The position numbers and the translations under genes were made by a program. From the IMG/VR virus record IMGVR_UViG_3300046533_000741, positions 1 through 20,912 of that record: a stretch of 20,912 bases of DNA; one strand, given 5' to 3'. The DNA is from a virus. Below the pieces are notes generated by a model, which saw only the letters and a program-made list of their open reading frames with translations, did no database searches and was not told the origin of the DNA. Position 1 is the stretch's first letter, and every line of letters starts with the position of its first letter. Of this stretch, positions 1,329 through 18,371 are shown in pieces.

Positions 1329-4220
1329 ATGGCCGTCCAGACCATCTGGCTGCTGGGGACGGCGGGTGTCACGCCGAACTTCTTCGGCAATACGCAGCTT
1401 AACGGCAGCGCGCCGACCGCGGCCAACACGGCGTTCGGTTGGGGTCCGGCCAAGACCGCTGTCACCACGCCGTATTTTCGGGGCCGTTTGGGCGCCACGA
1501 CGACAGGCAGTGATGCCGCCGTCGCCAGTTCCTACAACGCGGGCACGTCAGGACCGACCAGAGGCACCGGCACGGGCGCCGCCACGGCGGGCGACAGTTT
1601 CATCGCGGGTCCGTTCTCCGGCACCTTCGCCGCCACCGCCTGGACCTTCAATTGTAATATCCGCGCGAGCACGGCCGGCGCCGTCGGCCACATCAACATG
1701 CGCTTTTGGCGATCCGCCAACGCGGACGGCTCGAGCGCGACTCAAATCACCGCCAACACCGTGGGCGCGACGGTCACGCTGTCCACCACGGCAGACGTTA
1801 ACAGTTCAATCACCTGGTCGCCAGGCGCGCTCGACCTCAACGCCCAGTACCTGTTCTTTCAGGTCGAGTGGCAGGAGACCACCGCCGGATCAAGCAACAA
1901 CGACAACGTCTTCTTTCGCATCGGCACGGCCTCGATCACCACGGCGGATTACGTCGCCGCCGCGCTGGGCACGCTATCGCTCACCCAGGCCAGCCAGACC
2001 CTGTCGTCCGTTGGTCAGGTCAGAGTCAACGGCACGCTCTCTCTCACCCAGGCGGCGCAAACGCTGGCCGCCGCGGGCGGCGGACTACCACCCATCACCG
2101 GAGGAGTTGGAGGATCTCCAGATACAAACACGGTGTTGTTGATTCACGCCGATGGCGCCAACGGCTCGACGACATTCACCGATGCTTCTTCTTACGCGCA
2201 CACGTTGTCGGTCATCAACAGCGCCCAGGTCACCACCGCCGCGTCGAAGTTCGGGACTGGCAGCGCGAAATTCGACGGCGATTCCGGTGCCTTCATCGAC
2301 ACCGGGAACGTCACGGATTTTCAGTTCGGATCGGCGCCGTTCACGATCGAGGCGTGGGCTTATTACACGTCGGCGCCTGGGAGCGCCACCAAAGCAATCA
2401 CCGCCGTGTGGGGACCGGAAGGCAACGATTCATGGTGGTTAGGAAACAGTAACAACGGCCTGATGTTCTTGTGGTCAACGACCGGTGTTTACGACGGCGG
2501 CAAGGTTCTTCAGCCCGGTGGTTTCACTCCCACACTCAACACCTGGTATCACATCGCGGCTGACCGGGACGCCTCCGGCATGCTGCGGATGTACATCAAC
2601 GGCGCGGTCTACGCATCACAAAGCATCACCGACTTTTTCTCCGCGAATGGCGGAACCTGTACCGTCGGTGGCGATCATGTGAACGCCGGGAACGGCTTCA
2701 CCGGCTACCTCGACGAGGTCCGGGTCACCAAGGGCGTGGCTCGCTACGGTGGCGCTTTTACCCCGCCAACCGCGCCCTTCACTATCGCCGCGCCGCTGGC
2801 GCAGGCCAACCACACCATCGCCGCCACGGGCGATGTGCCGCTTCTGCCTCCCACGGCGATCCTCGCGCTGACCGAGATCAGCGACACGATCTCGGCGGCG
2901 GCAACGGTCGGTCCCGACTCCGGTATCAGCGGAGGGCTTGGCGACCCCAACGCCTCCATCCCGATCCCGGTGGATCTTCTGGTTCACGCGGACGCCGCCG
3001 CCGGAACAACGGTGTTCACCGACGCATCCGGCAACAACTGGCCGATCACGACACTGGGCGATGCCCATGTCGGAAGCGCGGCGAAATTCGGCACCGGGTC
3101 CATGGCGTTCGGCCCGCCTTCGTCAACGATCTCGCAATTGGCGATAGGCGGGCCGGGTGACTTCCACATCCCTGGCTTTACGCCGTTCACGATCGAATTC
3201 TGGGCCTGGTTTAACACCGATCCCACCGCCAGAACCCGCATTTTCACGGGTAAATGGGGGCCAGGCGGCAACGAATGGGTATTGGCCCTCGTCAATTCCG
3301 GCACCTTTACTTTCGTCTACACAACAAACGGAAGTGACTACCAGCTCGTCGGCTTAACCATACTCGCGTCGACAGATATCGGGAAGTGGATACATTTCGC
3401 GCTCGCCGGAGACGCCACCAACTTTAGAGCCTTTGTCAACGGTTCTATCGCGGGCTTTGGTTATCGTAACACACCATTTTATTTGAGTTCCTCCATAACC
3501 GGAATCGGCAACGACCCCGGTGACGGCGCGTCCGCTAATTTCGACGGCTACATCGATGAACTGGCGATCACCATCGGTACGTGCCGCTATATTGCCGATT
3601 TCATCCCGCCTTATAAACCGTATCGGGCTTTCTCCGACCCCGGCTACATGGTCCAGGGCGCGCAGACCCTCGCGGCCACGGGCACGGTCGCTGATCCGGT
3701 CAGCGGCAACGTCGGCACGCTCAATCTCACGCAGGCGTCGCAGACGCTGTTCGGCACCGCGAAGGTCGCGGTCGACGGCACGCTGGGCCTCACTCAACAG
3801 CCGCAAACGCTGGCCGCGACCGGCGGTGTGGCCCTCGGCGCCACGCTGGGCCTCACACAGGCACCACAGACGATCGCCGCCGCGGGCGGGGTCACCGTCA
3901 CCGGCACGCTGGGCCTGACCCAGCAGCCGCAGACACTCGCGGCGGTCGGGCGTGTGCTGGTCGGTGGCGCGCTGGGCCTGACGCAACAGTCCCAGACGTT
4001 GCTGGCGGCGGGGCAGATCCTGGTGACGGGCACGTTGTCGATCGCGCAGGCGCCTCAGACGCTGTCCGCGTTCGGCACGGTCGTCTCGCCTGGCGTCATC
4101 GTCGGCAACCTCAACCTGACGCAGGATGACCATGTGTTGAGCGCCACCGGCACCGTGCCCGCGAACGACACGGGAATCATGGAGACGCAGTACTATTACC
4201 GCCGACGAATGAGGAGATAA
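1329..4220 (+). CDS. Tail fibre/receptor-binding protein with two LamG domains
   Basis: 963 aa, starting 3 nt after the previous stop. Residues 1-210 are a Thr/Ala/Ser-rich beta-type domain. Residues 213-253 hold two copies of a GTLSLTQAxQTL unit. Residues ~265-483 and ~548-768 are two concanavalin-like LamG domains (LLIHADGANGSTTFTDASS and LLVHADAAAGTTVFTDASG starts, APFTIEAWAYY/TPFTIEFWAWF strands, GYLDEVRVTKG/GYIDELAITIG ends). Residues ~796-945 are seven further 21-residue GTLGLTQQPQTLAATGGV-type repeats, and the protein ends in a basic YYYRRRMRR tail. LamG domains bind carbohydrate, so a host-surface adhesin on the virion is the likely role. It is the largest gene here, in a tail context. 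The low-complexity repeats may be a spacer or a trimeric shaft. Confidence 0.8.
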   Translation: MAVQTIWLLGTAGVTPNFFGNTQLNGSAPTAANTAFGWGPAKTAVTTPYFRGRLGATTTGSDAAVASSYNAGTSGPTRGTGTGAATAGDSFIAGPFSGTFAATAWTFNCNIRASTAGAVGHINMRFWRSANADGSSATQITANTVGATVTLSTTADVNSSITWSPGALDLNAQYLFFQVEWQETTAGSSNNDNVFFRIGTASITTADYVAAALGTLSLTQASQTLSSVGQVRVNGTLSLTQAAQTLAAAGGGLPPITGGVGGSPDTNTVLLIHADGANGSTTFTDASSYAHTLSVINSAQVTTAASKFGTGSAKFDGDSGAFIDTGNVTDFQFGSAPFTIEAWAYYTSAPGSATKAITAVWGPEGNDSWWLGNSNNGLMFLWSTTGVYDGGKVLQPGGFTPTLNTWYHIAADRDASGMLRMYINGAVYASQSITDFFSANGGTCTVGGDHVNAGNGFTGYLDEVRVTKGVARYGGAFTPPTAPFTIAAPLAQANHTIAATGDVPLLPPTAILALTEISDTISAAATVGPDSGISGGLGDPNASIPIPVDLLVHADAAAGTTVFTDASGNNWPITTLGDAHVGSAAKFGTGSMAFGPPSSTISQLAIGGPGDFHIPGFTPFTIEFWAWFNTDPTARTRIFTGKWGPGGNEWVLALVNSGTFTFVYTTNGSDYQLVGLTILASTDIGKWIHFALAGDATNFRAFVNGSIAGFGYRNTPFYLSSSITGIGNDPGDGASANFDGYIDELAITIGTCRYIADFIPPYKPYRAFSDPGYMVQGAQTLAATGTVADPVSGNVGTLNLTQASQTLFGTAKVAVDGTLGLTQQPQTLAATGGVALGATLGLTQAPQTIAAAGGVTVTGTLGLTQQPQTLAAVGRVLVGGALGLTQQSQTLLAAGQILVTGTLSIAQAPQTLSAFGTVVSPGVIVGNLNLTQDDHVLSATGTVPANDTGIMETQYYYRRRMRR
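3714..4163 (+). repeat. 63-bp in-frame tandem repeats in the fibre gene
   Basis: Units start at 3714, 3777, 3840, 3903, 3966 and 4029, each exactly 63 bp (21 codons) apart, and at 4104 after a 12-bp insertion. Each unit encodes a variant of GTLGLTQQPQTLAATGGVxVx. Two further copies lie near 1965-2085, ahead of the first LamG domain. Copies are diverged at the nucleotide level, so the array is not freshly amplified, but the constant spacing suggests a repeated structural element. Confidence 0.9.
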
Positions 4221-5511: not shown

Positions 5512-6045
5512 ATGCCTTTCGTCAGTGGATTCCTACAGGTGCGCCACGGCGGACACCCGGACCAGGGACTGCCGGGCGAACAGCCGGGAATCGATAATTC
5601 TTTGCCCGGGATGCCCGCCTACCCGGACCAGGGGTTGCCGATGCCGCCGCCTGGCACGTTTCCGCCACCCAGCCCGGCGCATCCGATCGTCCCCGCGCCA
5701 CCGTCCACGCCGCCTGGCGTGATCTGGCCACCGATCGGTCGTCCGCCGTCCTGGGGCGGGGGCTGGGGCAGCGGCAACCGGCCCGATCAGGGACTTCCTG
5801 GCAGCCAGCCGGGACCGGACAACACCCTGCCGGGTCAGCCCGCGACCCCGGACAACACGCTGCCGACGCAGCCGCCGCGCCCCGACAACTCGTTGCCATC
5901 TCAGATGTATTGGGTGGTCTGTGGAATCCCCGGTGTCGGTTGGCGCTATGTGTGCGTCGACCCCTCGCTTCAGCCGGGAATGCCGCTGCCGCCGACGCCG
6001 GTGAACCCCGACAATACGCTGCCGCCGACCGCCGAACCTAAATGA
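5512..6045 (+). CDS. Proline-rich PDNTLP-repeat protein
   Basis: 177 aa from ATG 5512, chosen because AGGAG at 5500-5504 sits at correct distance; an upstream GTG at 5470 lacks this. The protein is built from repeats of P-D-Q-G-L-P-G and P-D-N-T-L-P (for example HPDQGLPGEQPGIDNSLPG and RPDNSLPSQ) around a Pro/Gly-rich centre, with one short folded segment YWVVCGIPGVGWRYVCVD near residue 135. Similar PDNTLP proteins recur in phages of alphaproteobacteria and are unannotated. It has no signal peptide. Being the last gene of the late-type block, it may be a virion or host-interaction protein; this is inference. Confidence 0.75.
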   Translation: MPFVSGFLQVRHGGHPDQGLPGEQPGIDNSLPGMPAYPDQGLPMPPPGTFPPPSPAHPIVPAPPSTPPGVIWPPIGRPPSWGGGWGSGNRPDQGLPGSQPGPDNTLPGQPATPDNTLPTQPPRPDNSLPSQMYWVVCGIPGVGWRYVCVDPSLQPGMPLPPTPVNPDNTLPPTAEPK

Positions 6046-6051
6046 CGAAAA

Positions 6052-6080
6052 GGGCGCGCACCCGACCTGGATGCGCGCCC
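6052..6080 (-). terminator. Hairpin terminator closing the long minus-strand array
   Basis: GGGCGCGCA (6052-6060) and TGCGCGCCC (6072-6080) form a perfect 9-bp stem with an 11-nt loop. Read on the minus strand it directly follows array C and is followed by TTTT (6051-6048), the layout of an intrinsic terminator. On the plus strand it lies 6 nt after the PDNTLP gene stop but has no T-run. Confidence 0.75.
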
Positions 6081-6305
6081 ACCTCGCCTCGCCCTACCAA
6101 GCCCCGCCACGCCGGACCCCGCCTAGCCCCGCCGCGCCCTACCCCGCCCGGCCCTGCCACGCCTCGCCGCGCCTCGCCTGACCTGACCACGCCCTGCCTC
6201 GCCGCGCCTCGCCTAACCACGGCGGGCCGCGCCAAGCCACACCTTGCCTAACCGGACCGTGCCCCGCCGGGCCACACCCCACCTCGGCGCGCCACGCCGA
6301 ACCTG
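6081..6305 (-). repeat. Array C: 45 phased NNGGY pentamers
   Basis: On the plus strand this reads (G/A)CCNN repeated every 5 nt; 43 of 45 units fit (exceptions at 6221-6225 and 6286-6290) and the phase never slips over 225 bp. Reverse-complemented it is NNGGC/T. It abuts the stop codon (6306-6308) of the 205-aa minus-strand gene on one side and the terminator hairpin on the other, so it would form the entire 3' UTR of that mRNA. The first two bases of each unit vary freely. It does not encode a sensible protein in any frame. Confidence 0.95.
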
Positions 6306-6923
6306 TTACGCCTCGGAAACGCTGTATTTCACGACGCTAAACCGTCCGTAGGTTGGTCGAAAATCGCCAACGCCGCCGATCCTGCCAGCGAGCGTGACGA
6401 CCTCGTGCAACTGATCCTGATTGACATATTCCGGTAGCGTCACCAAAAACCTGAAGTCACAGGTCCAGCCGACCCGCATCGCCGGGCGGATTCTGTTGAT
6501 GCCAGCACGCTGAATGACAACGCGGCGCCTGTCCTCGTAATCCCAGTCCTTTGTCCCAAAAGACGCCAGCGGCGTCAGCGAAACGATCGCCGCCTTGTAG
6601 AGATCCATGGCGGACTTTCTTGGAGAGCGCGGATCTTGCCTGAACTTCGAAGCCTGGATGATCGCGCCACGCAGGTATTCCCCGGGCATGCAGATCATTC
6701 CATTTTCGTCGCGATAGACATACGACTCGACATCGTCGGTCTTTTTCGCCGCGCTGTTTTTCGCGGCTTTCCCTTTGGTCTCAACGCTTTCCGCGTTCCA
6801 CCGATGGAACAGAACATCGGCTGACCCTCGGATCGAGACATTCGCGACGTACGGCAGCTCAGAGTTGATCGCCTCTTTGCCGCCATTCGTTACGTTATCT
6901 GTTATTCGTACGACCTTCGCCAT
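6306..6923 (-). CDS. RAMP-like phage protein of unknown function
   Basis: 205 aa, starting at ATG 6923 with AGGGGGA just upstream on the minus strand. Features: PYVANVSIRGSADVLFHRW near the N-terminus; a Lys/Ala-rich segment (KGKAAKNSAAKK); MPGEYLRGAII (about residue 79); FRQDPRSPRKSAMDLYKAAI; and GRIGGVGDFRPTYGRFSV near the C-terminus. I recall similar unannotated proteins in phage genomes. The PGxxLRGA motif and the glycine-rich GxxGGxGDFRPxYGRF loop resemble signatures of RAMP/Cas7-fold RNA-binding proteins, but this is a motif impression, not a proven homology. The gene is bracketed by pentamer arrays D and C, which should be its 5' and 3' UTRs, so autoregulation or binding of the array RNA is possible. 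Confidence 0.75.
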   Translation of the reverse strand: MAKVVRITDNVTNGGKEAINSELPYVANVSIRGSADVLFHRWNAESVETKGKAAKNSAAKKTDDVESYVYRDENGMICMPGEYLRGAIIQASKFRQDPRSPRKSAMDLYKAAIVSLTPLASFGTKDWDYEDRRRVVIQRAGINRIRPAMRVGWTCDFRFLVTLPEYVNQDQLHEVVTLAGRIGGVGDFRPTYGRFSVVKYSVSEA

Positions 6924-6939
6924 TTATTCCCCCTGTGAA

Positions 6940-7049
6940 ACCACGCCCGGCCAGACCCCACCTCGCCTGACCCCGCCCAGCCTCGCCTTGCCAGACCCAA
7001 GCCCGCCCAACCGCGCCGCGCCACGGCCAACCACGCCGCGCCACACCGC
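6940..7049 (-). repeat. Array D: 22 phased NNGGY pentamers
   Basis: Plus-strand (G/A)CCNN every 5 nt; 20 of 22 units match with no phase slip. It begins 8 nt after the minus-strand TAGGCT (7062-7057) and ends 16 nt before the ATG of the 205-aa gene, leaving room only for the ribosome site AGGGGGA. It therefore occupies essentially the whole predicted 5' UTR. Its length, 110 bp, is the same as array B. Confidence 0.95.
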
Positions 7050-7052
7050 GAG

Positions 7053-7101
7053 AGATAGCCTAGCCGTAATTTTTTGACCGGGTCAAGGGGCTAGGCTATC
7101 T
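7053..7101. promoter_or_regulatory. Nested inverted repeat, divergent control region
   Basis: AGATAGCCTAGCC (7053-7065) and GGCTAGGCTATCT (7089-7101) are perfect 13-bp inverted repeats. Between them lies a second palindrome, TTGACC-G-GGTCAA (7074-7086). The symmetrical layout gives a TTGACC -35 on each strand. It separates the RHH-like gene (plus) from array D and the 205-aa gene (minus), so it probably controls both, perhaps by binding the RHH-like product. Confidence 0.8.
7057..7086 (-). promoter_or_regulatory. Promoter for array D and the 205-aa gene
   Basis: Minus strand: TTGACC (7086-7081), an 18-nt spacer, TAGGCT (7062-7057). Transcription would begin near 7050, exactly where array D begins. 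The same TAGGCT precedes arrays A and B at the same distance. Confidence 0.5.
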
Positions 7102-7102
7102 T
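7074..7102 (+). promoter_or_regulatory. Promoter of the RHH-like gene, probably leaderless
   Basis: TTGACC (7074-7079), a 17-nt spacer, then TATCTT (7097-7102). A start site about 7 nt further on falls at 7109, the second ATG of the RHH-like gene, predicting a leaderless mRNA. ATG 7103 would be upstream of the transcript. Confidence 0.55.
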
Positions 7103-7108
7103 ATGGTC

Positions 7109-7312
7109 ATGCCAAGGGTGTTAAAATATCCTGAAAGAGCGCAGTGCAATGTCGTCGCCGGCACGCTCGCGGCCCTGGAGGCGCGGTTTGAGGCCGGCGA
7201 CGATCACGCGAAGCTGTTGCGACGCATCGTCAGCAATTGGATACGCGACACCCCGGCGACTAACTCCAAAGATCGCCCGCGACGTGGCCCACCGGAATCG
7301 TCTTCGCGGTGA
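7109..7312 (+). CDS. Small RHH-like DNA-binding protein
   Basis: 67 aa from ATG 7109 (69 aa from ATG 7103). The sequence MPRVLKYPERAQCNVVAGTL followed by AALEARFEAGDDHAKLLRRIVSNWI has the shape of a ribbon-helix-helix protein: a short N-terminal strand, then two helices. The Ser/Pro/Arg tail beyond residue ~52 looks disordered. It lies immediately beside the palindromic region 7053-7101, as expected for an autorepressor. The promoter position favours 7109. The last 53 bp overlap the end of the convergent beta-helix gene. The family assignment rests on pattern only. Confidence 0.6.
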   Translation: MPRVLKYPERAQCNVVAGTLAALEARFEAGDDHAKLLRRIVSNWIRDTPATNSKDRPRRGPPESSSR

Positions 7313-8396
7313 TCTCAAAGGTGATCGCCGACAGCGCCGGGGACGACAGCCACACCGAGGGATGCGCCACGCTGTAAGCGGTGAAATCGGTCAGCATCAG
7401 GGTATGATACTGATCGATCGTCAAAACCGGAGGTGGCGGTGGGGGAGGCGGTGTGGCTGGCGGCGGGGGCGTGGGCGCTGGCGGTGGCGGCGTGGCTGGC
7501 GTGGGTGGCGTTCCGCCCAGGAAGCCGATCGGCGCCAGATCCAGCACCGGGCGCGCGACCACCGTGCCCCCCAACGGATTCGCCAGGCCGAACACCGAAT
7601 TGCCCGCGAACGATGTCAGTCCAACGCCCGTTGGATTGAGGATGCCGACGCCACCGGAACGATCGTTGACGATCGTGTTGCCGGTCATCGACACGTTGTT
7701 GGACGGGTAGGCCAGGCCCTCCTCGCCATACGCGATGATGTTCTGGTTCGGACTGTTCGGCCCTTGCTCTATCGCATTATCAGCCAGATTGAGATTGCCA
7801 CCATTAGGAATATCAACAGTATAACTCGCGTCAGAATTGCCATCAAAAAGTCGATTATTCGTGATCGTATTGTTGGCCGCACGGGACTTTACCTCGTGAC
7901 CCTGATTGGCGTCATGGATGTAGCTGTTCGTGAGCGTGAAACTGGCGACCATGCCGATATAAATATCGTGCGTTCCACCCGAACCTCCCACGCCATTGAA
8001 CGCGAACTCGGAACGATCGATCGTGATCGAGCCGTTCGGATCGGGCGCGCCGAGGATGCCGTCCTGATTGCCGTGAAAATACACGTCGTTCAGGGTCAGG
8101 TTGCCAGACTCGTAGCGCACGGCTGCGCCGTTGGCGTCGGGCACCGTTACGCCAGAGATATCGAACCCCGAGATCGTTACGTTGCCGCCCTCATCGATCA
8201 TCGCCTTGCCGTTCGGCGGCTGGATCGTTTCGGTCATCACGGCGAACCCGCCGACCGCCATGAGCGTGATGTCCTTGAACACCGACAGGAACTGGTTGAC
8301 GTAAGATCCCGCCGCGACCTGGACGGTATCGCCTGGCTGCGCGCGGTCGATCGCCGCCTGGATGTCGCCACCCGCCTGCACCGTCAGTATCGCCAT
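7260..8396 (-). CDS. Right-handed beta-helix protein (pectate-lyase-like)
   Basis: 378 aa, ATG 8396 with GGGGA upstream. Residues 1-295 show the ladder of short hydrophobic strands and Asn turns of a parallel beta-helix (GNVTISGFDISGVTV, GNLTLNDVYFHGN, GSITIDRSEFAFNG, NNTITNNRLFDGN, NNVSMTGNTIVND). A Pro/Thr linker follows at about 296-323, then a ~55-residue C-terminal domain (LTIDQYHTLMLTDFTAYSVA). This fold serves in phage tailspikes and polysaccharide lyases. No signal peptide is visible at the N-terminus (MAILTVQAGGDIQAAIDRAQ). A tailspike/depolymerase or a surface carbohydrate-binding protein is likely; catalytic residues cannot be assigned from sequence alone. Confidence 0.75.
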   Translation of the reverse strand: MAILTVQAGGDIQAAIDRAQPGDTVQVAAGSYVNQFLSVFKDITLMAVGGFAVMTETIQPPNGKAMIDEGGNVTISGFDISGVTVPDANGAAVRYESGNLTLNDVYFHGNQDGILGAPDPNGSITIDRSEFAFNGVGGSGGTHDIYIGMVASFTLTNSYIHDANQGHEVKSRAANNTITNNRLFDGNSDASYTVDIPNGGNLNLADNAIEQGPNSPNQNIIAYGEEGLAYPSNNVSMTGNTIVNDRSGGVGILNPTGVGLTSFAGNSVFGLANPLGGTVVARPVLDLAPIGFLGGTPPTPATPPPPAPTPPPPATPPPPPPPPVLTIDQYHTLMLTDFTAYSVAHPSVWLSSPALSAITFEITAKTIPVGHVAGDLWS

Positions 8397-8495
8397 GGTC
8401 CGATTCCCCGTGGTTGCCCGCGGAGTCTAGCGCATTTCCGGGCGCGTCATGCCCGTGTCATTGGACATTCATGCTGCGGCGCAACATAATGCGCC

Positions 8496-8657
8496 ATGAG
8501 ACACATTATTGCAGCCGCGATATTGGCAGGAATCCTCACGAATTGCGCCCCCCCCGCACCGAGCCAGGGCTGGGGGGGCGCCTTCCCGGGTAACCCGATC
8601 GCCGTCTCGGTCTGGTCCCCGGCGGTTGAGTCAGCGGGCGACGGTCAGGGACCGTAA
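8496..8657 (+). CDS. Possible small proline-rich lipoprotein
   Basis: 53-aa frame starting MRHIIAAAILAGILTNCAPP: a basic N-terminus, hydrophobic core and a Cys at 17, which resembles a lipoprotein signal, although Asn before Cys is not a typical lipobox. The mature part is Pro/Gly/Ser-rich. Small proline-rich lipoproteins occur as outer-membrane spanin subunits (Rz1-like), so a lysis role is conceivable. No convincing ribosome site is visible, and it runs against the minus-strand genes, overlapping the end of the PEP-CTERM gene by 13 bp. Confidence 0.4.
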   Translation: MRHIIAAAILAGILTNCAPPAPSQGWGGAFPGNPIAVSVWSPAVESAGDGQGP

Positions 8658-9343
8658 CGCCGCCGACGACGGACGACGGCGAGACCGGCCAGGCCCGTTC
8701 CCAAAACAGCCAAGGTCATGGGTTCCGGCGTGTCCACGATGACCGGATTGATCACGCAGTCCGGACAGGTCGTGTTCACCGGGATTTCCTCGGAGACCAG
8801 CGAGTAGTTGTTCTGGCTCCCGACCCAGTCGATCTTCAGCGCGGTGGTGTAGTTCGCCCATGATCCCGACGTGAGCGTGGCTTCAAAACCGATGACGATC
8901 GGACCTGACAACAACCCGACCGGCGTCGGCGGGATCAGCGTGTTGTCGAAGCAGTAGAACCCACCCGATCCGTCGCAGCCGCTCGACGCCAGCCCGCCGG
9001 GGACGAAGTTGAACCCGTTGGCGCCCAGGGTCGTCACGCCGTTAACGCGAACACCGACGACCTGACCGCTGGAGGGGTTGTTTTTGGACACCGTGTTAAA
9101 CGCGATGGCGTTGATCCCGGTGCGCCCGCCGCGCGTGTCGGCGATCGAGTTCTCGCCCGCGATGACCAGCGCGAACTGTTCGGTGAGCGGATCGGCGGTG
9201 GCCTGGGCTTCCAGCGTGTAGACCAGGCCCTCGGTGGCGGCGTCAGGCCCCAGCGTGATCAGCGCGGCATGGGCCGGGGCCGAACACAGCGCGCCCGCGA
9301 CGACGCCGATCGCCGCCGCGGTCGCGAGGAGGTAAGCCCTCAC
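8645..9343 (-). CDS. PEP-CTERM sorting-domain protein 1
   Basis: 232 aa, GTG start at 9343 overlapping the upstream stop (GTGA), so translation is coupled to the second PEP-CTERM gene. A Sec signal peptide ends near residue 26 (LCSAPAHA). The mature part is a beta-rich secreted domain with cysteines (SGCDGSGGFYCF, TTCPDC). The C-terminus is the PEP-CTERM signal: PEP at 206-208, hydrophobic helix MTLAVLGTGLAGLAVV, then RRRRR. In bacteria with exosortase (EpsH/XrtA) such proteins are exported, cleaved and linked to exopolysaccharide production. No exosortase gene is seen here. It is unusual cargo next to phage genes. Confidence 0.85.
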   Translation of the reverse strand: MRAYLLATAAAIGVVAGALCSAPAHAALITLGPDAATEGLVYTLEAQATADPLTEQFALVIAGENSIADTRGGRTGINAIAFNTVSKNNPSSGQVVGVRVNGVTTLGANGFNFVPGGLASSGCDGSGGFYCFDNTLIPPTPVGLLSGPIVIGFEATLTSGSWANYTTALKIDWVGSQNNYSLVSEEIPVNTTCPDCVINPVIVDTPEPMTLAVLGTGLAGLAVVRRRRRYGP

Positions 9344-10011
9344 GCCGGGAGACCCGCATGCGTATCTTTACGTACCCGACGCCGGGCGACAGCGCCCAGG
9401 CCGATGAGGCCCACGCCCAGTAGCGCCAGCGAGGCCGGTTCCGGGGCGGCGGTGGTGGACGACGCCACGCCGCTGTAGGACGCCGAGAAACTCGCCAAGG
9501 TCGCGTTGTCCAGGGCGAGCGCGGGCGCCAGGTTGGACAATGACAACGTGAAGGTGTTCGGCGCGGCGAGATCCGCCGCCGCGATCACGCTGGACGTGAG
9601 CGAGAGGGTATCAGGCGGGTTGGCGACGTTGATGGACAATTGTTCGCCGGTCGCCAAACCAAACGCCGCGTCGGAAAACGTTCCGGAAAGGAAATTAGTT
9701 CCGGCGCCGCCTGCCAACGACGTGATGGCGAACGTCCCGCTGTAGTGCTGCAACAGCGCGGGACCGATGCCTTGCGCGGCGTCGATCGATGTCGCGTTGA
9801 GGTCGAGGAAGCCGGTGGTCGGCGCGTTGCCGAACAGTTGCGTGATCGAAATGGCGGAGTCGGTGGAGAGCGTGGTGGCCGTGCCCGCGCCGTTCGCGAC
9901 CGCCGTCAGCGTGTTGGTGTCGGAAACCTGGCCGAACGCGATTATTTGTGTCGCATTCGCACTGACAGACAGGCCCAGGACGGCGACCGTGGCGAGGAGG
10001 AGGTTTCGCAT
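9340..10011 (-). CDS. PEP-CTERM sorting-domain protein 2
   Basis: 223 aa from ATG 10011, chosen because AAGGGGA lies just upstream and the protein then begins with a proper signal peptide (MRNLLLATVAVLGLSVSANA); the frame is open further upstream to 10086 without a signal. The mature part is Ala/Thr/Ser-rich and beta-like. The PEP motif is at residues 190-192, followed by ASLALLGVGLIGLGAVA and RRRVRK, a textbook PEP-CTERM signal. It is the first gene of a two-gene coupled unit with PEP-CTERM protein 1. An extracellular, exopolysaccharide-associated role in the host is likely; exosortase must come from elsewhere. Confidence 0.85.
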   Translation of the reverse strand: MRNLLLATVAVLGLSVSANATQIIAFGQVSDTNTLTAVANGAGTATTLSTDSAISITQLFGNAPTTGFLDLNATSIDAAQGIGPALLQHYSGTFAITSLAGGAGTNFLSGTFSDAAFGLATGEQLSINVANPPDTLSLTSSVIAAADLAAPNTFTLSLSNLAPALALDNATLASFSASYSGVASSTTAAPEPASLALLGVGLIGLGAVARRRVRKDTHAGLPA

Positions 10012-10130
10012 GATGGTTCCCCTTGTATGTTTGGGGGAGTTTAATGCGCTGGCGGTGATCCGTCTCGCGAAAACGTCACGTTGCAAAAACAGTGGGTTAT
10101 GCCGCGAAACACCGAAACGACCGACATAGT

Positions 10131-10146
10131 GTAAAGCGCGCTTTAC
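10131..10146. promoter_or_regulatory. 16-bp perfect palindrome, candidate operator
   Basis: GTAAAGCGCGCTTTAC is perfectly self-complementary. It lies between the PEP-CTERM unit (minus) and the promoter-like block of array A (plus), in the otherwise gene-free stretch 10012-10195. A dimeric regulator site is plausible; the regulator is not known. Confidence 0.5.
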
Positions 10147-10152
10147 ATCGAT

Positions 10153-10192
10153 TTTCGCTGGAACGGCGGGCAGGAGCGGGCTAGGCTAGCCA
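10153..10192 (+). promoter_or_regulatory. Promoter-like block of array A
   Basis: A block from TTTTCGCTGGAACGG to TAGGCTAGCC is nearly repeated at 10932-10972. TAGGCT (10182-10187) lies 9 nt before the array. CTGGAA at an 18-nt spacing is a weak -35 candidate. The conserved element between two otherwise unrelated neighbourhoods suggests shared transcription control. Confidence 0.5.
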
Positions 10193-10194
10193 TT

Positions 10195-10476
10195 CACGGC
10201 GCGGCGCGGTGTGGCTTGGCGTGGCATGGCATGGCTTGGCGTGGCTGGGCGTGGCTTGGTTGGCCCGGGTCAGGCTTGGCGTGATTGGGCTTGCCGGGGC
10301 GTGGTGGGGCGAGGCCCGGCGTGGCAGGGCTTGCCATGGCCAGGCTGGGCAGGGCGGGCCGGGGCGGGGCGTGGCCGGGTTCGGCGAGGCATGGCAGGGC
10401 GGGGCCTGGTCAGGCTTGGTATGGTATGGGAGGCGTTTACGCCTCGGTCCCGTCCGGCTTCCCGCCGGGCGGGGCC
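10195..10476 (+). ncRNA. Candidate array RNA A
   Basis: Predicted transcript from the TAGGCT promoter through 46 pentamers to two hairpins: GAGGCG-TTTA-CGCCTC (10430-10445) and a 13-bp stem at 10446-10476 with loop TTCCC and two G-U pairs in the plus-strand RNA. No T-run follows. Expression is not shown; the call rests on the architecture shared with array B. Confidence 0.4.
10196..10425 (+). repeat. Array A: 46 phased NNGGY pentamers
   Basis: Reads ACGGC GCGGC GCGGT GTGGC and so on, 46 units in constant 5-nt phase; 41 match NNGGY (exceptions include TGGCC, GTGAT, two TTGCC and GGGCC). C dominates over T at position 5. The first two bases are variable, so this is not a simple identical satellite. 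All three frames are open for long stretches, giving Trp/Gly/Ala-rich ORFs that are artefacts of the composition. Confidence 0.95.
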
Positions 10477-10613
10477 ATAAGCGCGGCTATCGCCATCCTC
10501 AACTCTTGGTTATGTCGTTTGAGGTCCGCGGCCACGCGTTCCAGGTCCGCGATCCTCGCCCGCAGCGACTCGATGGAGTCCTCCGATGATGCCTGATCAA
10601 ACACCGCAACCAT
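10437..10613 (-). CDS. Small coiled-coil protein
   Basis: 58 aa from ATG 10613, with a weak AGGGG upstream. The sequence SIESLRARIADLERVAADLK and RHNQELRMAIAALMAP has clear heptad spacing, so a short coiled coil is expected; the end is GGKPDGTEA. The 3' end of the gene overlaps both hairpins that close array A. The last codons resemble a 13-codon frame beside array B (MAPSKGKLDGAEA at 11096-11137), showing that the two array ends share ancestry. The function is unknown. Confidence 0.6.
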   Translation of the reverse strand: MVAVFDQASSEDSIESLRARIADLERVAADLKRHNQELRMAIAALMAPPGGKPDGTEA

Positions 10614-10744
10614 CCGCCCCTATAGTCACGGGCGAAGAGATAGCGAAATTCCTGGAGATTTACCGCATCCTCGCGCGGCCTGACGGGCCTGCGGAGCCGG
10701 TGGGCAAGGTCGAGACGTGGCTTGAGGCGTTGTCGCGCAGATGA
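10586..10744 (+). CDS. Small hypothetical protein
   Basis: 52 aa from ATG 10586, with GGAG at 10575-10578 in good position. The sequence MMPDQTPQPSAPIVTGEEIA and KFLEIYRILARP then EPVGKVETWLEALSRR looks like a helical small protein. Its first 28 bp overlap, on the opposite strand, the start of the 58-aa coiled-coil gene; head-to-head overlap of two starts is unusual, so one may be false. It is the only plus-strand candidate in a minus-strand neighbourhood. Confidence 0.45.
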   Translation: MMPDQTPQPSAPIVTGEEIAKFLEIYRILARPDGPAEPVGKVETWLEALSRR

Positions 10745-10747
10745 ACC

Positions 10748-10921
10748 TCATCGTCTCGCTTCTGCTTCGCTGACTAGCCGGGCGAGCGTTTCCTCGAGCG
10801 CGTCAAGTTCGTCGCTGGCGGCGCGGAGGTCGTCCAGCCGCAACAACAGCGTAACGTAATTGCTGTTCGGGACGGAGGTGACGCGGGCGTCGAAGAGGCG
10901 GCGCAGGGCGACGGTTTTCAT
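10748..10921 (-). CDS. Small helical protein
   Basis: 57 aa from ATG 10921. The sequence MKTVALRRLFDARVTSVPNS leads into YVTLLLRLDDLRAASDELDALEE-type heptads, a probable short coiled coil, and ends EAEARR. No strong Shine-Dalgarno is visible. It is divergent from array B: the block containing the array B promoter begins 11 nt upstream of its start codon. Unknown function. Confidence 0.55.
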   Translation of the reverse strand: MKTVALRRLFDARVTSVPNSNYVTLLLRLDDLRAASDELDALEETLARLVSEAEARR

Positions 10922-10931
10922 TGGCGTTCAA

Positions 10932-10972
10932 CTTTCGCTGGAACGGTGGTCAGGAACCGGATAGGCTAGCCA
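10932..10972 (+). promoter_or_regulatory. Promoter-like block of array B
   Basis: Near copy of 10153-10192: CTTTCGCTGGAACGG, a variable middle, then TAGGCTAGCC with TAGGCT at 10962-10967, 8 nt before the array. It lies between the 57-aa minus-strand gene and the array. Confidence 0.5.
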
Positions 10973-10973
10973 T

Positions 10974-11135
10974 CCCGGCGCGGCCAGGCGGGGCATGGCG
11001 CGGCTTGGCGTGGCGCGGCAAGGCGGGGTCTGCCGGGGTTAGGTCCGGTCTGGCCGGGTCGGGCGGGCCATGGCGCGGTTCGGTATGGGAGGCGTTTACG
11101 CCTCGGCCCCGTCCAACTTCCCCTTGGACGGGGCC
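10974..11135 (+). ncRNA. Candidate array RNA B
   Basis: Predicted short counterpart of RNA A: 22 pentamers, then GAGGCG-TTTA-CGCCTC (11089-11104), then a perfect 12-bp stem GGCCCCGTCCAA/TTGGACGGGGCC (11105-11135). Compared with A, stem positions 11 and 12 change from G-C to A-T on both sides, a compensatory change. Confidence 0.4.
10975..11084 (+). repeat. Array B: 22 phased NNGGY pentamers
   Basis: 22 units, 20 matching NNGGY (exceptions CTGCC and GGGCC), no phase slip. It runs from the end of the promoter-like block to GGTATGGGAGGCG, the same junction that ends array A. Its length equals that of array D. Confidence 0.95.
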
Positions 11136-11142
11136 ATCCGCG

Positions 11143-11235
11143 TCAAAACGCGGCATCCAGCCATAGCCTGGCAATCACCGCGCCCGCGCCCCACACCACG
11201 ATGCACAGGATCAGCATGGCGAGGGCGGTCTTCAT
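11143..11235 (-). CDS. 30-aa single-span membrane protein
   Basis: MKTALAMLILCIVVWGAGAV followed by IARLWLDAAF: one transmembrane helix covering most of the protein. ATG 11235 overlaps the stop of the upstream 87-aa gene (ATGA), which strongly supports translation despite the short length. It is the last clear gene of the minus-strand operon. A tiny 13-codon frame (11096-11137) follows and shares its sequence with the end of the 58-aa gene beside array A; I do not call it a gene. Confidence 0.65.
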   Translation of the reverse strand: MKTALAMLILCIVVWGAGAVIARLWLDAAF

Positions 11236-11495
11236 AGCCGGGTCAGCCCCTCGCGGGCCACGGCCTCGGCGGTCAGGCGGGCGTCCTCGACCAGGCCATC
11301 GAGGCACTCGGTCATGCGTTTGAGGTCGTCAGCGCGCCACGACAGCACCTCCCGGATCGCCTCGAAATCGCTCCGGACGAGCGCGACCAGGTCGGCGGCG
11401 TCGGGGTGGCAGGCCTCGATCAGCCGCAGCGTGCCGAGGCCGGCGGCGAGCCTGCCCTCGATCAGGCGGGCCTCGTAGTCCTGGGCGGTTTTCAT
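11232..11495 (-). CDS. Hypothetical helical protein
   Basis: 87 aa from ATG 11495, which overlaps the upstream gene's stop (ATGA). The sequence is predicted to be all-helical (EARLIEGRLAAGLGTLRLIE, AIREVLSWRADDLKRMTECL) with no metal or catalytic motif, signal peptide or membrane segment. Coupled upstream and downstream within the minus-strand operon. Family not recognised. Confidence 0.7.
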   Translation of the reverse strand: MKTAQDYEARLIEGRLAAGLGTLRLIEACHPDAADLVALVRSDFEAIREVLSWRADDLKRMTECLDGLVEDARLTAEAVAREGLTRL

Positions 11496-15170: not shown

Positions 15171-15713
15171 ATGAGTGACATACCACCCAAGGCACCGACT
15201 GGCTACCAGATCGAGAAAGTGATGTCCGCCTGGGAACAGGCGCGCGACCGGCTTTTGCTCGCCGACCCCTCCCTGGCCGACGATGAAGTCGCCCTCTACG
15301 AAGCCCTCGGCCCGGTCGAGGCCGACCGGCAGGCGTTGCTCGCGCGGCTGCTGCGGAGCGCCATACACGCCCGCGACATGGCCGAGCAGGCCACCAAACG
15401 ACTGGAGGACCTCAAAGCACGTCAGGCCCGCTACATACGCCGAGCCGCCAGCGTCAGCGCCTCGGCGCTGGCGATGATGCAGGAGACCGGCGAGCGCCGC
15501 TTCGAATTGCCGGATCTCAGCGCCTCGATCAGGCGCAATCCCGAGAGCGTGAAACCGACCGACGAGGACCTGATCCCACCCGGCTACTGGGTGATCACGA
15601 CCACACGCGCGATCGACAAGAACGGCATCCGGCGCGCCATCAAGGCGGGCGAGGCCGTGCCGGGCGCCGAACTGGTCGAGGGCGCCGAATCCCTCCAGAT
15701 AAGGACTGTGTGA
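15171..15713 (+). CDS. Siphovirus Gp157-like protein
   Basis: 180 aa, ATG 15171 with AAGGGAAA upstream. The central part is a long charged helix (ATKRLEDLKARQARYIRRAA), followed by the family signature: ALAMMQETGERRFELPDLSA, SIRRNPESVKPTDEDLIPPG, then IDKNGIRRAIKAGEAVPGAE and LQIRTV. This matches Sipho_Gp157 proteins found beside single-strand annealing genes in many phages; their biochemical function is not settled. The stop overlaps the Erf-like gene start (TGATG), so the two are made together. Confidence 0.85.
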   Translation: MSDIPPKAPTGYQIEKVMSAWEQARDRLLLADPSLADDEVALYEALGPVEADRQALLARLLRSAIHARDMAEQATKRLEDLKARQARYIRRAASVSASALAMMQETGERRFELPDLSASIRRNPESVKPTDEDLIPPGYWVITTTRAIDKNGIRRAIKAGEAVPGAELVEGAESLQIRTV

Positions 15714-16606
15714 TGAGCGATATCATCCCCGCCGCCAATGGCGGCGATCCGGACCCCGTGACCGCCCTGCTGATGCGCGCGGCCACCGACCCGGGGTTCG
15801 ACAGCGCCAAATTCGAAACCGCGGTGTCGTTCCTCCGAGAGCGTGAGGCGACCGCCGCCCGGCGCGTGTTCAATCAGGCTGTTTCCGCCGCGCAGTCGCG
15901 CATGGACGCGGCGTTCAAGGACGGGAAAAACAGCCACCTGAACAACAAATACGCCACGCTCGATGCCTTGCTGAAGGTCATCCTGCCAGCGGTCACCGCC
16001 GAGGGGTTGAGCCTGCGGTTTGGCTCTCAGACCGCTTCGCAGCCCGGCTGGCAGTGCGTGACGTGCATTCTGAGCAAGGGGGACCACGAGGACGTGACCT
16101 CCCTGGAGGGGCCTGTCGGCGGGCAGGGAAGCGGCGGGCCGCGCGTGCAGATGACGCCGATTCAAATCACCGGCTCAACCACGACCTACCTAAAACGTTA
16201 CCTTTTAGGAATGGTTTTCCCAATGATCCTCTCGGATGAACATGACGACGACGGCGAGGCCAGCCGGCGTGGGCCACGCGGCCCGATGCCAGCTTCTCGC
16301 CCCCCCGCGGTGGAGCGCGGTGGACCGCCGCAGCGTGAGACCGCGGCGCAGTGGCTCGACCGCACGGCGCTCGAATTCGCGGCGGCTGATACCTCGGCCC
16401 TGCCCGCGATGTTGGCGGCGCCGCGCATCGCCCAGATGCAGGGCTGGCTGACAAACGGCGCGCTCGACCGGCTGAATTACATTCTGGACCAGGCGCACCA
16501 GCGCATCGCGAAACAGGACGACGCGGACGAAGCGGAGGTGCCGCCGGAGGAGGGGGACCCGTTGTTCGCGCCCGGCGCGGACCCGTTCGTGGAGCGGGCG
16601 CCATGA
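15713..16606 (+). CDS. erf: Erf-like single-strand annealing protein
   Basis: 297 aa from ATG 15713, sharing one base with the previous stop. Residues ~40-165 form the ERF domain: FLREREATAARRVFNQAVSA, KNSHLNNKYATLDALLKVIL, PAVTAEGLSLRFGS, ITGSTTTYLKRYLLGMVFPM and the acidic DEHDDDGE end. A Pro/Arg-rich linker and a helical C-terminal region follow, as in P22 Erf-type proteins. Erf proteins anneal complementary single strands in phage recombination. Its place next to Gp157, a helicase and a VRR-NUC nuclease makes a coherent replication/recombination module. Confidence 0.88.
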   Translation: MSDIIPAANGGDPDPVTALLMRAATDPGFDSAKFETAVSFLREREATAARRVFNQAVSAAQSRMDAAFKDGKNSHLNNKYATLDALLKVILPAVTAEGLSLRFGSQTASQPGWQCVTCILSKGDHEDVTSLEGPVGGQGSGGPRVQMTPIQITGSTTTYLKRYLLGMVFPMILSDEHDDDGEASRRGPRGPMPASRPPAVERGGPPQRETAAQWLDRTALEFAAADTSALPAMLAAPRIAQMQGWLTNGALDRLNYILDQAHQRIAKQDDADEAEVPPEEGDPLFAPGADPFVERAP

Positions 16607-16668
16607 CCGACATCCGCGCCTGGGCGCTCGCCCAGCAAGCCGCCGCGCTGGCGGTTGAGATGCCATGA
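16603..16668 (+). CDS. 21-aa ORF in the replication operon
   Basis: MTDIRAWALAQQAAALAVEM-P, a small Ala-rich helix. Its ATG overlaps the Erf stop (ATGA) and its own stop overlaps the next ATG (ATGA). No motif. It may be a real microprotein or only a coupling relay. Confidence 0.45.
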   Translation: MTDIRAWALAQQAAALAVEMP

Positions 16669-16883
16669 CGACCGAAAACTACCGCACTGAACGAGGCTCG
16701 CGCGTCGAGATCAGCGGCGAACATCGCGGTATTTCAGTGATCAATTGGGACTGGTTCGAAGAAGGCGCATGTATCGAGGCGCGGCCCGTCGCCGAGGTAA
16801 ATTCGCGCGACGACCCACACCTCTTCTGGTCGTGCGATTGTTGCGGCGCCGGGCAGGCGCCGCTGATCCGGTGCGACCCATGA
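16665..16883 (+). CDS. Hypothetical protein with CDCC motif
   Basis: 72 aa, ATGA overlap upstream and downstream. Contains VINWDWFEEGACIEARPVAE and WSCDCCGAGQAP near the end; the cysteines could bind metal. No family recognised. Lies in the replication operon between Erf and the helicase. Confidence 0.6.
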   Translation: MTTENYRTERGSRVEISGEHRGISVINWDWFEEGACIEARPVAEVNSRDDPHLFWSCDCCGAGQAPLIRCDP

Positions 16884-16945
16884 TCCCGATCGGCGAACTG
16901 GGCGCCATGACGGACACCCCTCGGGGCGGTGAGGCTGGTGTTTGA
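16880..16945 (+). CDS. 21-aa ORF overlapping the helicase start
   Basis: MIPIGELGAMTDTPRGGEAG-V. ATG 16880 overlaps the upstream stop (ATGA), and the last 17 bp overlap the GTG start of the helicase in another frame. Probably a translational coupler; it may not yield a stable protein. Confidence 0.35.
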   Translation: MIPIGELGAMTDTPRGGEAGV

Positions 16946-18371
16946 TCTCCGGCCCTACCAGGAGATCCTCGTAGGGCATACCCGCGAGGCTTTCCGCGCC
17001 AACCGCCGCGTGCTGATCGTGGCGCCCACCGGGTCGGGCAAGGCCGTCATCCTGGCCTATGTCGCCTATCACGCGGCGGCGCGCGGCAATCGTATCATCC
17101 TCGTCGTTCACCGGGACGAGTTGCTGACCCAGCTATCCGGGTCGCTCTCCGAGATGAGCGTGCCGCACGGGCGGATTCAACCCGGCTGGCCGCGCACCGA
17201 GGAGCCGGTGCAAATAGCGATGGTGCAGACGCTCACGCGGCGGTTGCACCGCATAATAAATCCGCCGGATCTGTTGTTTTTCGATGAGGCTCATCACGTC
17301 GTTTCGACATCATACAAACGTATCGCGGACTACTGGCCGAACGCGCGCGTGCTGGGCGCGACGGCGACTCCGCTGCGGCTCGACGGCAGGGGCCTCGGCG
17401 AGGTGTTCGACACGATGATCGTCGGGCCGGGCACCCGCGCGCTGATCGACGCCGGGTGGCTGGCCGACTTCGACTATAGAGCGCCGCCGGTCGATATCGA
17501 CATGAGCGGCGTCAGCACCGTGCTGGGCGACTACAATGTCGAGCAACTGGCCGCGGCGACGGACAAGCCGCGCATAACCGGCGACGTGATCGAGCATTAC
17601 AAATCCTATCTGGGTGGGCGACCGGCGATCGCATTTTGCGTCCGTGTCAGCCACGCCGAGAACGTCGCGGCGGCGGCGGCGGCAGCCGGCATCAAGGCGG
17701 TCTCGGTCGACGGCGACACGCCGCCAGCTGAACGCGCGGCGCGCATCGCCGGTCTCGCCAACGGCAACACCGAATTGCTGACAAGCTGCATGATCGTCGG
17801 CGAGGGGCTGGACATCCCAGCCGTCTCGGGCGCGATCCTGCTGCGAAAGACCAAGAGCCTCGCGATGTACTTGCAGTGGATCGGGCGCACGTTGCGGCTG
17901 AAACGCGACAACAGCCGCGCGCTGATCCTCGATCACGTGAACTGCGTCGACGCGCATGGCATGCCCGACGCCGACCGGGCGTGGACACTCAGCGGCAAAC
18001 CTCCGGGCGTGGCGCCGACCGCGACGTGCTTCCGGTGCTACCGCGTGTTCCGGATCGGCGCGGGCTGGAAAATCGGCCAGGAGTGCGACGACGCGGGCGA
18101 AGAGGGCTGCCTGCTGAACGCCGAGAACGGCGAGGAGCCATCGGTCGTGACGCCGCCCCCGGTCGTGCCGGGCACCCTGGAGGTGTTCACCCGCACCCCC
18201 GCGTGGGCGGGGGGGATCGACATCGTGCTGGCGCGTGGGGCCGAGTACAAGGACCTGATGGACAAGGCGAACACCCACGAGCGAGTGGACATGATCCGCA
18301 AAGCCCGGGGGTATCACCCGGGCTGGACGCGGCATGTGATGCTCGCCCGGCAGGCGAAGCGGCCCGCGTGA
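16929..18371 (+). CDS. SF2 DEAH-box helicase with altered Walker A
   Basis: 480 aa from GTG 16929. Motifs in order: LRPYQ (Q-like, residue 7), Walker A APTGSGKA (32-39), Walker B DEAH (119-122), GATATP (motif III, about 143-148), and QWIGRTLR (motif VI, 316-323). After the two RecA-like domains, CFRC (C367, C370) and further cysteines suggest a zinc site, followed by a C-terminal region. The family includes phage DNA-unwinding helicases near annealing genes. Unusual: the residue after the Walker A lysine is Ala39, where Ser or Thr normally coordinates Mg2+, so ATPase activity may be weak or supported differently. It overlaps the next gene (GTGA). Confidence 0.85.
   Translation: MRLVFDLRPYQEILVGHTREAFRANRRVLIVAPTGSGKAVILAYVAYHAAARGNRIILVVHRDELLTQLSGSLSEMSVPHGRIQPGWPRTEEPVQIAMVQTLTRRLHRIINPPDLLFFDEAHHVVSTSYKRIADYWPNARVLGATATPLRLDGRGLGEVFDTMIVGPGTRALIDAGWLADFDYRAPPVDIDMSGVSTVLGDYNVEQLAAATDKPRITGDVIEHYKSYLGGRPAIAFCVRVSHAENVAAAAAAAGIKAVSVDGDTPPAERAARIAGLANGNTELLTSCMIVGEGLDIPAVSGAILLRKTKSLAMYLQWIGRTLRLKRDNSRALILDHVNCVDAHGMPDADRAWTLSGKPPGVAPTATCFRCYRVFRIGAGWKIGQECDDAGEEGCLLNAENGEEPSVVTPPPVVPGTLEVFTRTPAWAGGIDIVLARGAEYKDLMDKANTHERVDMIRKARGYHPGWTRHVMLARQAKRPA

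Follow-up and report, generated by a model that had tools for sequence, protein, structure and literature searches.

The four pentanucleotide arrays found in the window (the whole 20,912-nt stretch of viral DNA that was analysed, IMG/VR record IMGVR_UViG_3300046533_000741) are very probably the vrRNA genes of a phage-borne VIPR locus that carries its own vipr gene. VIPR (Viral Interference Programmable Repeat) was already described in 2026, in a preprint that is not peer reviewed (PMC13142463), and the present locus adds a further case to a kind of system that is known. According to the preprint's main text, VIPR is a CRISPR-like weapon of phages against phages, in which a phage RAMP protein is combined with vrRNAs of alternating GGY and NN (tandem YNNGG units with hypervariable NN), and competing elements are repressed through DNA recognition by the NN dinucleotides, read with a skip of 1 nt. 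The same text presents VIPR as RNA-guided DNA recognition that predates CRISPR and whose guide code is non-contiguous. The arrays of the window have the published vrRNA form, i.e., a GGY scaffold, variable NN and, in A3 and A4, a structured 3' tail. The original prediction knew of no named element of this form; such a name now exists, VIPR vrRNA being defined by the GGY/NN alternation. The VIPR signature was reached independently and blind at a new locus, to which a pooled test of NN against codons is added here. Of lasting interest are the long, in-phase, partly detached arrays and the rewriting of their interiors.

Array geometry and the vipr gene

The features of the locus are as follows.

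6052-6080 (-): terminator-like element, a GC-rich hairpin of 12 bp and then TTTT, immediately past A1; putative end of the vipr/A1 transcript
6081-6305 (-): array A1, 45 units, 43 of them NNGGY; begins immediately 3' of the vipr stop codon
6306-6923 (-): vipr, between A2 and A1; previously unannotated ORF for a 205-aa Vipr of predicted RAMP fold (phrog_4652)
6940-7049 (-): array A2, 22 units, 20 of them NNGGY; in the vipr 5' leader, 16 nt from the vipr ATG
7050-7103 (-): region upstream of A2, with GGCTAGGCTA just before the array and nested palindromes AGATAGCCTAGCC / GGCTAGGCTATCT around TTGACCCGGTCAA
10148-10193 (+): conserved 46-nt leader of A3, ending in TAGGCTAGCCAT; repeat family D3
10196-10425 (+): array A3, 46 units, 41 of them NNGGY; on the strand opposite to vipr and remote from it
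10426-10478 (+): 3' tail of A3, with an ATGGG cap, the hairpin GAGGCG-TTTA-CGCCTC and then a 12-13 bp hairpin
10928-10973 (+): leader of A4, a second copy of the 46-nt leader, 85% identical; repeat family D3
10975-11084 (+): array A4, 22 units, 20 of them NNGGY
11085-11137 (+): 3' tail of A4, two hairpins arranged as in the A3 tail, two of the pairs being changed in a compensatory way

A recount of the four arrays gave exactly the figures first reported, with 124 of 135 units reading NNGGY and no phase slips or indels. Ten of the 11 remaining units are NNGCY (position 4 changed from G to C) and one is GTGAT; G at position 3 and C or T at position 5 are each present in all 135 units of the window. 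In the proposed comparison with shuffled sequence, the window reached a best phased score of 39, and none of 180 Markov-shuffled windows (orders 1, 3 and 5) exceeded 6. For the joined arrays A1 to A4 the score is 102; the highest among 600 sequences drawn from Markov models trained on the arrays (orders 1-3) is 10. The earlier view that these are neither decayed satellites nor coding repeats was right, as was the view that selection maintains GGY in its 5-nt register: in the 98% relative L140, NN and unit number differ, and GGY and phase are kept. The original prediction had also combined constant phase with free positions; the phase part stands, whereas the positions are not free, given that NN is the guide in published VIPR and not filler. 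An alphaproteobacterial host, suggested at the same time, was not confirmed. No CRISPR-like array was found by a repeat search of positions 5900-11300, where the repeats are the NNGGY arrays and the leaders and tails that belong to them.

When the ORF at 6306-6923 (-) was compared with the PDB by phmmer, a single match was obtained, 36pp_D, "SUSP1 Vipr protein", with an E-value of 5e-7. A profile of 66 array-linked homologs matches 36pp_D with an E-value of 8.8e-43 and has no other match below 0.4. All but one of these homologs (65/66) match phrog_4652, a family of unknown function, which the present results identify as Vipr. NCBIfam, PADLOC (run on the Vipr protein alone) and Pfam gave no match for the window's Vipr, and Pfam gave isolated weak matches only for its relatives. 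The AlphaFold model of the protein has a pLDDT of 91.3 and a pTM of 0.85, and its best 50 PDB matches in Foldseek are all RAMP chains of CRISPR complexes (type III-A/B Csm and Cmr, type VII and Cas7-11), with E-values from 1.6e-7 and Csm3/Cas7 at the top. Given that the Foldseek library closes on 8 April 2026 and predates the Vipr preprint, this match constitutes independent support. Judged by sequence and model, the ORF encodes a Vipr-family protein with a predicted Cas7/Csm3-like RAMP fold.

In comparison with the Cas7/Csm3 backbone of class 1 CRISPR, the protein shares the predicted fold and a conserved glycine-rich C-terminal motif (AGxxxGxGDxRP...GRF), yet sequence identity is very low at 10-14%, and the locus has GGY/NN repeats rather than spacers and, over 5900-11300, no CRISPR array. 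The period also differs, being five nucleotides in VIPR and six in class 1 CRISPR, as the preprint's main text (PMC13142463) and general knowledge have it.

Two other candidates, a TRAP-like ring protein binding 5-nt spaced triplets and a G-quadruplex, were dropped on the Vipr match. The second belongs to a broader explanation, in which the arrays are a nucleic-acid structural element for which spaced GG would suffice, for instance a tract of two-tier G-quadruplexes or some other structured RNA. A GG every 5 nt makes two-tetrad quadruplexes possible. However, a quadruplex does not explain the pyrimidine at position 5 of every unit, the folding energy of the arrays shows no consistent gain over unit-shuffled controls, and the linkage to a RAMP protein is left unexplained, so that we give this explanation almost no credence.

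Spread of the arrays and linkage to vipr

The VIPR reading was further examined across viral and cellular sequences. At least 120 IMG/VR contigs match the pattern (GGYNN)x10, and 102 of the 119 loci among the matches listed have at least seven distinct NN among their ten units. The reversed-motif control (YGGNN)x10 yielded 99 loci in IMG/VR, none with at least seven distinct NN. For (GGYNN)x12 in bacterial and archaeal genomes, the matches listed comprise 119 loci, almost all of which are plain microsatellites. Given that the viral loci are NN-diverse and the cellular ones mostly simple microsatellites, NN-diverse arrays are concentrated in viruses. They span a wide GC range, with AT-rich contigs using GGT in place of GGC. 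Over 6823 pooled units, a pyrimidine is at position 5 in 99.4%, a value to which the detector itself contributes by favouring such units. The longest in-phase array among the relatives has up to 161 units. In L091 (8678-8938), L038, L121, L014 and L057, arrays of 7-15 units are tiled with overlaps and shifted phase, which is consistent with the "staggered arrays" named in the preprint's main text (PMC13142463).

An iterated profile search found a vipr gene in 85 of the 117 contigs with variable arrays among the matches listed, and in none of five contigs retrieved by an unrelated pattern. The array contigs that lack vipr may be cut off near the array or carry more divergent versions. Among the contigs listed, the nearest array lies at a median of 15 nt from vipr, and the arrays that lie no more than 3 kb from the gene share its strand without exception (349/349). 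When SUSP1 was tested with the same array detector, arrays were found beside its vipr.

These values bear directly on the possibility that the arrays are a neutral, GC-rich satellite of pentanucleotides in which point mutations have accumulated. Tandem Repeats Finder does report weak period-5 arrays, and cellular genomes contain many simple (GGYNN)n microsatellites. Such a satellite, however, agrees poorly with NN that is highly variable beside an invariant position 3 and no indels, with the lack of NN-diverse arrays in the reversed-motif control, and with relatives that alter NN and unit number and keep the phase. The strand agreement with vipr (349 to 0 among the matches listed) and the linkage to the gene refute it, and its probability is negligible.

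The closest described system, VIPR of Escherichia phage SUSP1 (PDB 36pp), resembles the present locus in having a homologous Vipr, GGY/NN arrays that flank vipr on the same strand, and a structured 3' tail entered via RTGGG. The two differ in several respects. The arrays here have 22-46 units each, counted in DNA, whereas the preprint's main text (PMC13142463) gives 9-16 repeats per vrRNA in SUSP1 and P. fulva, a range not stated there as a family-wide criterion. Two additional arrays lie more than 3 kb (3.3-4.2 kb) from vipr on the opposite strand, A2 is tailless, and the tail sequences are unrelated to those of SUSP1. For SUSP1 vap1 and the downstream gene of DSL-LC04, no homolog was found in the window, beside vipr or elsewhere. 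Array length, the tailless A2, the missing vap homolog and the target searches described below, which found no natural target, weigh against the VIPR reading. Phage DSL-LC04 (OR003939.1) has a Vipr 60% identical to that of the window and an array of 17 units upstream, but another gene directly follows its vipr, and the detector found a single array. Its Vipr homolog (OR003939.1, 22429-23046) is labelled a helix-turn-helix transcriptional regulator, which is probably a mis-annotation.

The preprint's main text distinguishes VIPR types (I-VII) and notes that array architecture varies among the other types; since it cites IMG/VR v4, the present clade may already be in its data set (PMC13142463). 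Tentatively, and with doubt outweighing confidence, the clade may extend VIPR beyond that main text by its long in-phase arrays, an array in the vipr leader, detached vrRNA genes, and a register-keeping replacement of array interiors between conserved ends that would renew the guides. If this is true, interior replacement might allow guides to be acquired with no need of a Cas1-like integrase, and the position of A2, which in the vipr 5' leader lies right beside the ribosome-binding site, would make autoregulation possible.

Leaders, tails and the remote arrays

Each of A2, A3 and A4 is preceded by a TAGGCT hexamer whose end lies about 7 nt from the first unit. This distance suggests a -10-like promoter element, with transcripts that would start at the array. 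The palindromes upstream of A2 appear promoter- or operator-like from their sequence. The 16-nt gap between A2 and vipr includes a ribosome-binding site; no structured tail was found for A2, and there is no room for one. From this anatomy, A2 and A1 would be the leader and trailer of the vipr mRNA, and A3 and A4 would be separate vrRNA genes.

In the tails, pairing is kept in 98% of cells, with two double changes (three sequences), a covariation equalled by 58 of 500 shuffles. The junction of array and tail is shared, reading ATGGG in A3 and A4, GTGGG and ATGGG in SUSP1, and RTGGG in L010. Rfam gave no match on the window and 11 relatives, and hence no hammerhead-interspersed array at the gathering threshold. 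At 4356-5144 of L107, a repeated structured spacer, CTGATCGGC..GCCGACATATG..TAGCGATACACGAGAGACAAGC, lies between arrays; it too has no Rfam match and is possibly an unrecognised tail or a self-processing RNA.

The placement of A3 and A4 admits another explanation, that they are decoys or anti-VIPR RNAs that soak up a competitor's Vipr, as RNA anti-CRISPRs (Racr) do. Their distance of more than 3 kb from vipr, the other strand, and a leader and tail of their own are compatible with this, as is their rarity: among vipr-bearing loci, remote or opposite arrays otherwise occur only in L037 (a 7-unit stretch) and the near-identical L140. Against it, the same genome encodes its own Vipr, the content of A4 has turned over in L140 as guides would, and the tails begin with RTGGG, resembling SUSP1 tails. 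We consider decoys improbable and retain A3 and A4 as vrRNA genes.

Putative guide content and turnover

By homology with the SUSP1 and P. fulva systems, the arrays would be transcribed in the GGY sense, and Vipr subunits would line up on the RNA in the register set by its GGY units. The exposed NN would then pair with double-stranded DNA as NNxNNx with a 1-nt skip, the skipped base falling mostly at codon wobble positions, and transcription of a competing phage, satellite or prophage would be blocked. When 5586 units from 127 loci are pooled, the NN frequencies agree best with codon positions 1-2 of ORFs in the same loci (r 0.65). This reading is the best of six in 69 loci, and the runner-up is best in 24, the others being positions 2-3, positions 3-1 and the reverse readings. 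Such a fit is expected of a guide read with a skip at the wobble position, as in the published 1-nt-skip code, yet it is correlational, and background composition or GGY context may contribute. A gapped target search of 408 arrays against 2.87 Mb of array-locus DNA, with skips of 0-3, favoured no skip length. Exact 8-unit NNx scans of IMG/VR gave 2 matches for A1, 5 for A2, 14 for A3 and 0 for A4, and no natural target; essentially no match extends past the queried units, and they are read as chance. With A1 decoded as NNx codons, tblastn against phages gave a best E-value of 3.

The relative L140 is 97-98% identical to the window, with flanks almost unchanged. A1 is identical in L140, and A3 is identical in L140 and L215. 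In A2, the first seven units and the last are kept and the interior is replaced, the whole array going from 22 to 41 units; in A4, the first eight units and a GC TC pair near the end are kept and the interior is replaced, the whole array going from 22 to 32 units. These length changes are always in whole 5-nt units. The new interiors in L140 have no 6-unit NN word in common with the arrays of unrelated loci with which they were compared. Repeated 3-unit NN words exceed shuffles in the long arrays of L103 and L107 and not in those of the window; hence block duplication may account for the growth of arrays in other loci, though not in the window. The preprint's main text (PMC13142463) does not address the origin of new guides, and this pair, with two arrays rewritten, makes it a directly testable question.

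Other genes of the window were also annotated. The ORFs at 8645-9343 (-) and 9340-10086 (-) carry a C-terminal PEP-CTERM sorting motif (Pfam E-values of 2e-4 and 1e-5), which one would not expect on a phage contig and which hints at the nature of the host envelope. A right-handed beta-helix protein (7260-8396, -) and a 963-aa protein with a Laminin_G_3 lectin-like domain and matches to baseplate families (1329-4220, +) are probable host-binding or structural proteins. A recombination/replication block at 15171-18371 (+) comprises a Gam/Gp157-like protein, an Erf annealing protein and a DNA helicase.
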